A program made the position numbers and the translations under genes. 33,542 nucleotides of DNA from Deltaproteobacteria bacterium (GTDB lineage: Bacteria; Desulfobacterota; Binatia; Binatales; Binataceae), in assembly GCA_021780225.1 (NCBI GenBank), contig JAJXZF010000106.1, positions 1 to 33,542 of the forward strand, written 5' to 3'. Shown piece by piece: positions 29,936 through 33,542 of this stretch; the first letter of the stretch is position 1, and the number at the start of each line of letters is the position of its first letter. The notes beneath the pieces are model-generated. The model was not told the DNA's origin and ran no database searches. It saw only the letters and a list, made by a program, of their open reading frames with translations.

Positions 29936-31276
29936 CTAGCGCCCGAAGCCCAGGCCGCGCATCAGGGGGCGGCCCACGCCCATCCGGGTGATTTTCTTCA
30001 TCATTTTGCGGGTCTGCTCGAATTGCTTGACGAAGCGGTTGACCTCCTGCACGGAGGTGCCGCTGCCGTTCGCGATTCGCGCGCGCCGCGTGCCGTTCAA
30101 TATAAGATGATTCTGCCGTTCCTGCCGGGTCATCGAGTCGATTATAGCCTGCACCCGCTTGAGTTCGGCGCGGGCCTCCTCGGAGTCGGCCTGGCCGGCG
30201 ATTTTCTTCAGCCCCGGAATCATCCCGAGCAGGTCGCCGATCGATCCCATCTTGCGGATCGTGCGGAGTTGATCGGCGAAATCCTCGATCGAAAATTCAT
30301 TCTTCTTGAGCTTGCGCTCGAGTTCCTTGGCCTTGTTCTGATCGTAATTCTGCTGGGTCTTTTCGATCAGGCTGAGCATGTCGCCCATGCCCAGAATCCG
30401 CGAGGCGAGGCGGTCCGGATGGAACACCTCGAAGGCGTCGAGCTTTTCGCCCAGACCGGCGAACAGGATCGGCGCGCCGGTGATCGCGCGCACCGAAAGC
30501 GCGGCGCCGCCGCGCGCGTCGCTGTCGAGCTTGGTCAGGACCAGGCCCGAAATCTTGAGCCGATCGTGAAAGCCCTGCGCGACGTTGACGGCGTCCTGAC
30601 CGGTCATCGCGTCGGCCACCAGAATCGTATGATGGGGATTGGCGGCGACCTTGAGCCGGTCCAGCTCCGCCATCAATTCGTCGTCGATTTGCAGGCGGCC
30701 GGCGGTGTCGATCAGCAGCGCGTCGTGGCCGCCGACCTCGGCCCGCATCAGCGCCCGGCTTACGATCTCGACCGGATCCTCGGTCTCCCGGCTTTCCGCG
30801 ACCGGCACGCCGATTTGCGCGCCCAGAATCCGCAACTGTTCCATCGCGGCCGGCCGCCGCACGTCGGTCGAAACCATCAACGGATGGCGCTTGCGTTCGG
30901 CCTTGAGGAAACGCGCCAGCTTGGCCAGCGAGGTGGTTTTGCCCGAACCCTGCAGGCCGACCACCATGATTTTTACGGGCGGCTTGACCTTGAGGTCGAG
31001 TTCGCGGGCGCTGCCGCCCATCACCTCGCACAGTTCGGCGGCGACGAACTTGATCAGATGCTGCTCGGGGGATAGGGAGCGCAGCACCTCCTGCCCGAGC
31101 GCCTTTTTCTTTACGTGCTCGACGAAATCGCGGACGACCTTGATATTGACGTCAGCCTCGAGCAGGGCGAGGCGGACCTCACGGAGCGCTTCATCGATAT
31201 TGCGCTCGGTGATGCGACCCTGGCCTTTTAACTTCTTAAAGACGCCTTCGAGGCGGTCGCTGAGCGTGTCGAACAT
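29936..31276 (-). CDS. ffh: Signal recognition particle GTPase Ffh (SRP54)
   Basis: 446 residues. The N domain (about 1-95) is followed by the G domain with GLQGSGKTT (107-115), LLIDTAGR and LTKLDSDARGG. The Met-containing M domain (about 325-446) has MIPGL, SMTRQER, RRARIANGSG and the C-terminal MMKK. It binds signal peptides and 4.5S RNA and targets ribosomes to the membrane. The C-terminus GRPLMRGLGFGR is short and complete. It opens the ffh-rpsP-khpA-rimM-trmD cluster. The 4.5S RNA gene is not in the window. Confidence 0.97.
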   Translation of the reverse strand: MFDTLSDRLEGVFKKLKGQGRITERNIDEALREVRLALLEADVNIKVVRDFVEHVKKKALGQEVLRSLSPEQHLIKFVAAELCEVMGGSARELDLKVKPPVKIMVVGLQGSGKTTSLAKLARFLKAERKRHPLMVSTDVRRPAAMEQLRILGAQIGVPVAESRETEDPVEIVSRALMRAEVGGHDALLIDTAGRLQIDDELMAELDRLKVAANPHHTILVADAMTGQDAVNVAQGFHDRLKISGLVLTKLDSDARGGAALSVRAITGAPILFAGLGEKLDAFEVFHPDRLASRILGMGDMLSLIEKTQQNYDQNKAKELERKLKKNEFSIEDFADQLRTIRKMGSIGDLLGMIPGLKKIAGQADSEEARAELKRVQAIIDSMTRQERQNHLILNGTRRARIANGSGTSVQEVNRFVKQFEQTRKMMKKITRMGVGRPLMRGLGFGR

Positions 31277-31366
31277 GATCGGAACTGGATGTAAGAAGAG
31301 ACGACCGGATGGTCCGGATTATTCTGATGCCTCGGAAGTCGGCGCAGGCTTTACTCCAAGCATCAA

Positions 31367-31395
31367 AGCGTAAACCCGCCCGCCCCCGATGTCAA
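31367..31395 (-). promoter_or_regulatory. Candidate sigma-70 promoter for the ffh cluster
   Basis: On the minus strand TTGACA (31395-31390) is a perfect -35 box, followed after 17 bases by TACGCT (31372-31367) as -10. The predicted leader before the ffh ATG is about 85 bases. Position and spacing are ideal; the -10 match is partial (3 of 6). The flanking gap 31277-31464 holds nothing else I can support. Confidence 0.5.
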
Positions 31396-31464
31396 CGCGG
31401 TACTGCCTAGCCCCACCAACGGGGATCGCCTTGGGACGGCCGACCAAAGAACGCACCACGTGGA

Positions 31465-32103
31465 TCATGAAGGCACGCAATCTGCATGCGCGCGTAGCTC
31501 TGGTCTCACCCTTCTTCCGAATGTGACGAGATAGACCTTTAATCCTTCGGTTCGAGCAAATTTCATGACGGGCACGAAATCAGAGTCTCCCGTGACGAGA
31601 ACCAAAATGTCCACCAGCCGGTTCAGCGCAATTCTCGCCATGTCAAGCCCGATACGAATATCGACGCCTTTCTGCTTGAAATCAGGAATTAAATCTTTGG
31701 GTTCGATCGCACGCCTCGTGGAGGCAATCTCTTGGAGCGATCTTTGTTTGATTTTGAATCCTTGGCGAAGCAGCACACCACGACGAACTGCGAAATCTGA
31801 TTCTTGCTCAAGCTCTTCAATTAACCGTTTATTCGCGATACCTAACGGGCTGGTCTTGTAGTTCGTTTGAAAACCGTCCATTGGATTGGTGACGGTTCCG
31901 TCATAAGGCAGCGAATCATAATAGAAAATTCGATAAAGCGATCCGTTAGCCAATCTTTGATGATCGAGAATTCGTTCGCAGACCTGAACGATTTCATCCG
32001 ACGAAACAATTGGTTCTGGTCTTGATTGCGTCAGGGCGCTGCGAACGAAGCCATCGTCCAATAAAAGCGCAATTTTATCATTAGGACGCGATTCTACTCG
32101 CAT
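31465..32103 (-). CDS. NYN-domain (PIN-like) nuclease, lower GC than neighbours
   Basis: 212 residues from the ATG at 32103. The start IALLLDDGFVRSAL (D16/D17), the middle VDIRIGLDMARIAL (D148, D154), and VLVTGDSDFVPVM (D173, D175), then KVYLVTFG, give the acidic sites and beta strands of the NYN/LabA branch of PIN-like nucleases. The acidic set looks complete. NYN proteins cut RNA or act in RNA turnover; some are found in defence or toxin contexts, but no partner is visible here. The gene uses AT-rich codons unlike its neighbours (26 of 60 bases are G or C at 31801-31860, by hand count), so it is likely acquired. It lies upstream of ffh on the same strand. Confidence 0.85.
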   Translation of the reverse strand: MRVESRPNDKIALLLDDGFVRSALTQSRPEPIVSSDEIVQVCERILDHQRLANGSLYRIFYYDSLPYDGTVTNPMDGFQTNYKTSPLGIANKRLIEELEQESDFAVRRGVLLRQGFKIKQRSLQEIASTRRAIEPKDLIPDFKQKGVDIRIGLDMARIALNRLVDILVLVTGDSDFVPVMKFARTEGLKVYLVTFGRRVRPELRAHADCVPS

Positions 32104-32319
32104 GAAATTACATCATAAGCATTTATTCATCTATTCCAAGCATCTTGACGAACGGAATATCGGTGGTTTAAATTAGACACTGAATCGAAAGACGCCCTCC
32201 CTTCGCGTACAATCCAAGTAGGATCGCAAGGACCTCACGCGTTGGGGGGCACGTTTTTAATCCCAATCCCGGTTATTTTTCTTTTCAACTTTGCAACATT
32301 CGTTGACCAATTATTTCTC
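32104..32319. other. AT-rich intergenic stretch between the NYN gene and the ComM stump
   Basis: Apart from the candidate NYN promoter I see no gene, strong inverted repeat or IS end here. The composition is clearly more AT-rich than the flanking chromosome, with runs such as GTTATTTTTCTTTTC. The change to normal GC occurs near 32320, at the stop codon of the ComM remnant. Confidence 0.5.
32112..32139 (-). promoter_or_regulatory. Candidate promoter of the NYN gene
   Basis: On the minus strand TTGGAA (32139-32134) and TATGAT (32117-32112) are separated by 16 bases. The -10 box is only eight bases from the ATG, so the transcript would be nearly leaderless. This agrees with the lack of a ribosome-binding site before the ATG. 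Confidence 0.35.
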
Positions 32320-32505
32320 TCATACCGCCGTGCGGTCGAGCGGGCGGTACTGGATCGCGTCGCTCAGATGGAACGCCGGAATCGGGCCGCCGCCGTCAAG
32401 ATCGGCGATCGTGCGGGCGACTTTTAGCGTGCGGGTGTAGGTGCGCGCGCTCAGGCCCAGCCGGTTTATCGCCAATTCAAGCAGACGCTCGCCGGCGACG
32501 GGACG
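32320..32505 (-). pseudogene. C-terminal stump of a ComM/YifB-family AAA ATPase
   Basis: The minus strand encodes 61 residues followed by TGA at 32320-32322. The stretch [32 protein letters not shown] and [13 protein letters not shown] matches the last part of the Mg-chelatase-like ComM/YifB family, which ends in ARTIADL...HL.EA.QYR.LDR. Full proteins are about 500 residues, so roughly 85-90 percent is missing. No start codon or ribosome-binding site serves it. Its frame is the same as that of the gene upstream, whose TGA stop (32506-32508) lies directly before the first codon. It is too short to be functional. Confidence 0.7.
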
Positions 32506-32943
32506 TCAGATGGTCGGTATGCGCGAGCCAATTTCGCTGGCGATGTTCGAGACCAGCCAGGTTATTCCGGCCGCGTAGGCGAGCCATCTATGAGCGCGGC
32601 GCATGGCGCGCGGCCATCGCCCCGGCCGCTTGCGCAGCCAGAACAACGCGCCGCCGAAAAATGGCATGACCGCCATCAGCGCGAAGTAGATCAGGCCGAC
32701 GTTCTGATGAAAGGTCATGAAGCCGATATGCCGCGGGTTGACAATCGGCGGATGCGGCCGGCTGCCGGCGACGAGCGTGTTCATATAGACCACGAAAACG
32801 CTAAGCGCGAGCGCCGCGGCCCAGCGTCCGACATGTCCGGCGCCGCCCTTGGCGGCGGGATACTGCCACAGCAGCAGGACGCCGGTCAGCAGCGTAAGCC
32901 AGAACGAGATGCGGTAATTCCAGTGGGACAGCAGATAATTCAT
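32506..32943 (-). CDS. Small four-helix membrane protein, unknown
   Basis: 145 residues from the ATG at 32943. Four hydrophobic helices lie at about 11-28, 42-60, 80-101 and 118-137. The loops contain HPPIVNPRHIGFMTFHQNVG and RRAHRWLAY; the several His residues recall heme- or metal-binding membrane proteins, but I cannot assign a family. The start overlaps the stop of the upstream gene as ATGA, so the two are translated together. Its C-terminus (SRIPTI) is followed at once by the ComM stump, so the natural end may have been altered by a rearrangement. Confidence 0.65.
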   Translation of the reverse strand: MNYLLSHWNYRISFWLTLLTGVLLLWQYPAAKGGAGHVGRWAAALALSVFVVYMNTLVAGSRPHPPIVNPRHIGFMTFHQNVGLIYFALMAVMPFFGGALFWLRKRPGRWPRAMRRAHRWLAYAAGITWLVSNIASEIGSRIPTI

Positions 32944-33542
32944 TTCGCGGTTGCGCGGCCGCCGTTCGCCGCGGATCCGGCGGCCATGGTTAAGATGCTC
33001 CGCGCGGATTTCGCCGAGACGGTCTCTTTTTCATTATTACGCCGGCCGTGATCTGTCGATCGCGCCCAGACGGCTATCGTGTTGGATTCGTCGTAGTCGA
33101 AATCTCGAATATGTTGGTAATTTTTCCGGACGAACGCCTGAATCGGTTCGATATGATCGCTGCCGGCCGGACATCCCATGTGGTCTATGGCCGGACTCCA
33201 GAACACAAATCGAACATTGTGCCGTTCGAGAGCGTGAAGCGCCTCGGCCGCCTGCCGCGGCGTGGTGAAATCGCAGGAAGTCAGCCACCAGAGCTTGGTC
33301 GGGTTTCTGAGCGCGAAAAGGAAATAGAGCCCGGTGTGGATGGGCGCCGCATCGAAGACGAATTCTCCGGGAACGGTGTTGTTTTCCAGCCATTGATAAT
33401 AATCGCGGTAATTGCCGCGCGGGTAATCTATGGCGACCGTGCCGGACGGAGTATCAACATGGTTTGCGGCATGTTCATGCGCCCCCCATGTATCCATCAG
33501 CATCAGCGCCGCGATCAACAGCCAAAACAGCGGCAGCGCCGG
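32940..33542 (-). CDS. C-terminal part of a GT39-like membrane glycosyltransferase, 5' end outside window
   Basis: The frame is open to the last base of the window, so the start lies beyond it; 200 residues are visible. The first visible residues PALPLFWLLIAALMLM end a membrane helix. They are followed by a soluble domain: IDYPRGNYRDYYQWLENNTVPGEF, GLYFLFALRNP, RFVFWSP and FDYDESNTIAVWAR. This layout (helices, then a periplasmic domain ending in a short beta strand with xxVWxR) is usual for polyprenyl-phosphate sugar transferases of the GT39/ArnT type. Catalytic residues would be in the missing part. A basic, low-complexity tail of about 35 residues follows. It overlaps the small membrane protein gene by four bases. 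Confidence 0.65.
   Translation of the reverse strand, partial: PALPLFWLLIAALMLMDTWGAHEHAANHVDTPSGTVAIDYPRGNYRDYYQWLENNTVPGEFVFDAAPIHTGLYFLFALRNPTKLWWLTSCDFTTPRQAAEALHALERHNVRFVFWSPAIDHMGCPAGSDHIEPIQAFVRKNYQHIRDFDYDESNTIAVWARSTDHGRRNNEKETVSAKSARSILTMAAGSAANGGRATAK

Follow-up and report, generated by a model that had tools for sequence, protein, structure and literature searches.

A probable comM relic beside an unrelated gene pair in a draft genome of the Binataceae

Results

The end of comM lies behind a complete membrane protein gene

The window analysed here is a whole contig (C25; 33,542 bp, containing no Ns) of a draft assembly of 118 contigs (G000). On its minus strand, translation of positions 32320-32943 gave a 145-residue membrane protein, a TGA (32506-32508), 61 further codons and a second TGA (32320-32322), with one frame throughout. 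The 61 codons and their TGA (32320..32505) form the C-terminal stump of a ComM/YifB gene. We observed that the stump translation matched positions 44-94 of the 94 positions of PF13335 (Mg_chelatase_C; E 2.9e-16, 60.3 bits against a cut-off of 26), which is the second half of the domain only, and positions 452-499 of the 499 positions of the YifB profile TIGR00368 (E 6.2e-12). With 44.9 bits against a TIGR00368 cut-off of 362.4, it is not a full-length ComM/YifB protein having the N-terminal domain and the AAA core. Both matches are significant and agree with a preliminary description of this DNA, in which the 61 residues before the TGA at 32320 were taken for a ComM-like end.

The ComM homology runs from about 32496 down to 32323 and comprises the last ~57 residues of the protein, while the first three codons of the stump (R-P-V) are not ComM-like. 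The junction (32494..32508, minus strand) consists of the stop codon of the membrane protein gene, up to 12 nt of uncertain origin and then comM; only about 9-12 nt separate this TGA from the ComM homology. The stump had been described as following the TGA directly and in frame. The frame was correct, but ComM itself starts later, and as its homology begins about three codons past the stop, the common frame is a 1-in-3 coincidence. Using the flank of the membrane-gene homologue of G001 and the comM of G003 as proxies for the parent sequences, we observed a junction overlap of at most 8 nt with the former and of 5 nt with the latter, upstream of the homology. The joining of the two ends appears to have involved little or no sequence overlap.

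The membrane protein gene (32506..32943, minus strand), earlier read as encoding a four-helix protein, is complete. Its homologues in G001 (contig C223, 81% identity) and G008 (C34, 65%) end at, or within one residue of, the same place ('..RIPPV' and '..RIPLT', respectively), which confirms the usual end of the gene. Since this stop is native, the readthrough fusion that had been considered for the membrane protein and the stump is unlikely; the relaxed evolution of the stump, described below, also argues against it.

The foreign side carries an operon-like gene pair

Only about 1 kb of the foreign side is present in C25. A second gene (32940..33542, minus strand) overlaps the start of the membrane protein gene by 4 nt in an operon-like arrangement and runs off the contig end. 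The C-terminal 200 residues that it encodes are homologous to a 535-residue protein of G004; homologues of 46% identity occur in G003 and G004 and weaker ones in G014 and G022. Among the ten genomes searched for the membrane protein, matches were obtained in G000, G001 and G008, with a weak second place in G001, and the other seven had none. Neither gene was found at any of the 24 comM loci fetched from relatives.

The G001 homologue resides on a 4.9-kb contig together with genes for an RPA replication protein (E 2.8e-65) and a RepB primase (E 6.6e-32). This contig, of coverage 2.4, is identical to JAJXYM010000376.1 from a Deltaproteobacteria MAG, and may represent a plasmid, an element or a stray contig. 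The neighbours of the G008 homologue looked chromosomal, as judged by eye from their translations. We found no match for the membrane gene in plasmids, none in viral contigs in a search sensitive to close relatives only, and none for the second protein in plasmids; a plasmid or viral origin was accordingly set aside. An RPA replicon, prompted by the G001 contig, was also rejected, as the RPA gene was not found in G000 (it was present in 4 of the 29 genomes searched). When the last 200 bases of C25 were used to look for an overlapping contig, 40 of the 62 candidates were scored; apart from C25 itself, these were chance matches no longer than 47 bases.

comM is split in G000 and intact in its congeners

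We searched the assembly with the 518-residue ComM of G003, whose numbering is used here (6 is to be added for the reference numbering of the class-wide comparison), and obtained two strong matches. Residues 460-518 matched the stump with 86% identity, and residues 2-240 matched C72:3-719, at the left tip of another contig, with 96% identity. The remaining seven matches (E 0.006 or worse) were to other proteins, and the missing comM middle of ~660 bp was not found among them. The absence of the rest of comM, as first described, is therefore true of the window but not of the assembly. In a PF13335 search of the whole assembly, the stump (positions 44-94, E 2.7e-15) was the sole match to the end of ComM.

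In five congeners (G001-G005), the genes of C72 lie upstream and those of C25, from ffh onwards, downstream of one intact comM, the aligned blocks sharing 65-92% DNA identity. The conserved downstream neighbour (29936..31276, minus strand, 446 aa) is, judging from its translation, presumably ffh, and the names of the C25 genes beyond it are likewise our assumption. In G003, 661 bp of comM separate the two aligned ends; this stretch is missing in G000, where the N-terminal part stops at the contig end about 220 residues before the stump starts. PF13335 was matched in all 38 genomes searched, the own genome included. Five of the six other genus members matched it over positions 1-94; in the sixth, G006, the gene is cut by a contig end.

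Because a single intact comM lies between the C72 genes and those downstream of the stump in the five congeners, the gene is split in G000, with the ancestral gene order kept on both sides. Since congeners have an unbroken gene at this position, the stump marks a border of recombination, insertion or deletion. The border suggested previously was thus confirmed, whereas the integration site proposed with it gained no support from the searches for large serine recombinases, the comM-associated XRE gene and the RPA gene.

The stump has evolved faster than the N-terminal part

Next, we compared the two comM pieces across 20 family genomes, 19 of which defined the invariant columns; G006 was left out for its cut gene, and G010, G011 and G013 were not in this set. 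The stump departed at 3 of 34 family-invariant columns and the N-terminal part at 0 of 88 (P 0.020). The nearest relatives, G001, G003 and G004, showed no departure, and in a leave-one-out control other genomes reached at most 2 departures in the C-terminal part and up to 3 in the N-terminal part. When derived changes were polarised with G003, G004 and the outgroup G001, the G000 branch had 6 nonsynonymous to 6 synonymous changes in the stump and 1 to 13 in the N-terminal part (P 0.026), in a small sample of 57 and 219 codons from one lineage. The overall change was also greater in the stump (12 of 171 sites versus 14 of 657; P 0.003), a difference not seen for G003 plus G004 (P 0.37). We read the stump as evolving like a relic; the constraint on the N-terminal part may reflect a recent break or a restored gene.

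A real break of comM is the favoured explanation

It is fairly probable (about 0.6) that comM of G000 was broken by a real insertion or rearrangement. In this reading, the 3′ end of the gene never left its ancestral position upstream of ffh; it decays there as a relic and is joined to an operon-like pair of genes from elsewhere, while the C72 tip, with the front of comM, represents the opposite side of the event. We infer that the event was an insertion rather than an inversion, translocation or deletion, and that it would have left the cell without a working ComM; the relic is probably dead. The following points stand against a real break. Both sides of comM are contig ends of a 118-contig draft, known from assembly sequence only, and the foreign side spans just about 1 kb; no recombinase was found among the families searched (large serine recombinases and PF07508); the N-terminal part is still constrained (1:13), which is odd if the whole gene has been dead for as long as the stump; and the samples behind the evolutionary contrast are small, with single genomes of the leave-one-out control showing 2 departures in the C-terminal part and 3 in the N-terminal part.

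The first of these points is what one would expect from an artefact of the assembly or the library, in which a chimeric read or a misjoin attached the last kilobase to the comM end while the gene of the living cell is intact: both pieces lie at or near contig tips, the middle is missing, and contig ends cut comM in other drafts of the class as well (for example G006, G011, G048, G071 and G129). However, an intact gene should not carry relic-type substitutions, the window contains no Ns, and the 8 nt or fewer shared with the G001 flank and the 5 nt shared with G003 comM would seem too little for an assembler to join. We regard an artefact as unlikely.

The constraint on the N-terminal part would also suit an integrative element that inserted into comM and brought a new 3′ end with it; ComM would then still work, and the stump would be the original end, displaced by the element. 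Integrases that restore their target gene usually leave such a displaced 3′ fragment beside foreign genes, and the relaxed stump (6:6) next to the gene pair fits this pattern. But the assembly contains no second ComM C terminus and no recombinase of the families searched, and the N-terminal part stops at its contig end about 220 residues short of the stump. Such a restored comM is improbable.

Class-wide cuts of comM at the NPCPCG codons

PF13335 was matched in at least 134 of the 148 genomes of the class. Loci with short open frames or several matches were picked by eye (32 stretches of 23 genomes), and a further 8 stretches of 6 genomes were also fetched. Seventeen C-terminal fragments had upstream DNA and entered the test for an XRE gene, in which 6 of the 12 positives had themselves supplied the profile. 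We observed that in 13 of the 17 the first residue corresponds to reference residue 353-367, where the AAMNPCPCG codons lie, and that 12 of these 13, from 10 genomes, have the XRE gene (L102, L105, L106, L108, L112, L116, L117, L118, L119, L126, L072 and L070), the thirteenth, of G121, being without it. The gene encodes a two-HTH protein and reads away from the C half of comM. The four later-starting fragments gave one weak match (G082, E 3.2e-10) and three without any. Three of the 10 genomes (G032, G036 and G094) also hold a comM of intact length elsewhere; no N half was found for G137, G108 and G083.

N halves ending at the NPCPCG codons were obtained in G056, G086, G025, G129 and G046. Five class genomes encode a large serine recombinase that shares at least 55% identity with the G056 protein. 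It adjoins the N half in G056, G086, G025 and G046 (L166, L165, L167 and L174), while in G078 it has no adjoining N half; the two proteins tested (G056 and G086) carry PF00239 and PF07508. In G129, by eye, an XRE-like sequence and not the recombinase follows the N half. In G086, a single contig contains both halves; the roughly 40 kb that separate them include a second serine recombinase and two coupling-protein-like genes.

Other arrangements were also seen. G124 (L105, L106, L108, L107) carries C-terminal pieces of comM at five sites, of which three are preceded by an XRE gene, but has a single N half, truncated by a contig end. In G029, an intact comM is followed about 3.5 kb downstream by a short ComM fragment directly beside an HTH gene (L069:12798-12869). 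In G010, the frame of comM changes around the NPCPCG codons (L076:5377-6911).

An element of this type, inserted at the NPCPCG codons of G000 with later deletion of its ends and of adjacent comM, could have produced the stump, given that the element type is present in the class and that the target codons fall within the missing stretch. However, G000 has no large serine recombinase of the family at E 1e-20, no PF07508 match and no comM-associated XRE gene at E 1e-8. Its N half ends at a contig end, the DNA beyond being unseen, and its stump begins about 100 residues past the usual cut. An insertion as in the class-mates is thus unsupported for G000 and very improbable.

The comM-ffh gap holds different genes in each genus member

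In each of the six genus members for which both flanks were available (G000-G005), the interval between comM and ffh is occupied by different genes (window 31277-32319; L044:11500-13494; L045:9294-11103; L046:9870-11648; L047:8406-9831; L048:4201-5978), and the nine main ORFs gave no cross-match below E 0.05 (best 0.062). The gap has a lower GC content than the rest of the fetched locus in 6 of 6 (0.47-0.63 versus 0.62-0.67), the difference being smallest in G005. In G000, the low-GC cargo between stump and ffh is a 212-residue NYN-domain protein (31465..32103, minus strand; PF01936, E 5.2e-13), which also matches phage family phrog_5783 (E 4.9e-50). The gap of G003 encodes an AIPR protein (E 2.8e-22) and that of G001 an AAA_21 ATPase (E 4.8e-16), whose best PADLOC profile is AbiLi (E 8.5e-20). 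At E 0.01, Pfam gave nothing for five of the nine proteins, and for a sixth a single match that fell short of its cut-off. Across the wider set, 14 of 24 loci showed ffh downstream of comM within the fetched stretch. As the gap is only 147-345 bp in G007, G010 and G013, the cargo pattern is a genus-level one.

These data make a defence-cargo site possible. That the interval is a genus-specific island site exchanging cargo, defence-type genes included, and that one such exchange in G000 cut the 3′ end off comM, whose function is maintained by an end that the element supplied, has little probability. We found no literature on comM-ffh as an integration hotspot.

Discussion

A real break of comM, as favoured above, has parallels in print. 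Large-serine-recombinase elements target magnesium chelatase/comM according to Durrant et al. 2022 (PMC10083194). In one account of the Wolbachia prophage sr1WO, integration is mostly into magnesium chelatase, with XRE regulators at the 3′ end (PMC9203015). In Acinetobacter baumannii, AbaR islands interrupt comM, and their removal with repair of comM is reported to have raised transformability (PMC7508600). Breakage of comM by elements is therefore a known kind of event. As in the serine-recombinase cases, foreign DNA splits the gene in G000 and is bordered by its parts; in contrast to them, neither a recombinase of the families searched nor an XRE gene of the comM-associated type was found, and the stump starts later. 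Foreign DNA interrupts comM as in the AbaR islands, with the foreign side of G000 known from 1 kb only. Like ComM/YifB pseudogene fragments, the stump is a piece of the C-terminal Mg_chelatase_C domain; unlike them, it has only the last ~57 residues and is joined to an unrelated gene pair. Our literature search returned nothing relevant on ComM C-terminal fragments or pseudogenes. The stump fits an element-broken comM loosely, and not the serine-recombinase subtype.

comM is normally single-copy, and its breakage by insertion or rearrangement is a common kind of event. The relic of G000 is of an ordinary kind; the cargo site and the class-wide splitting of comM are two modest additions to it. 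ComM acts as a branch-migration helicase during natural transformation; if it is lost in this lineage, less DNA should be taken up. G000 joins the draft lineages that have a breakpoint in comM, and the comM-ffh gap is a place to look for phage-defence genes.
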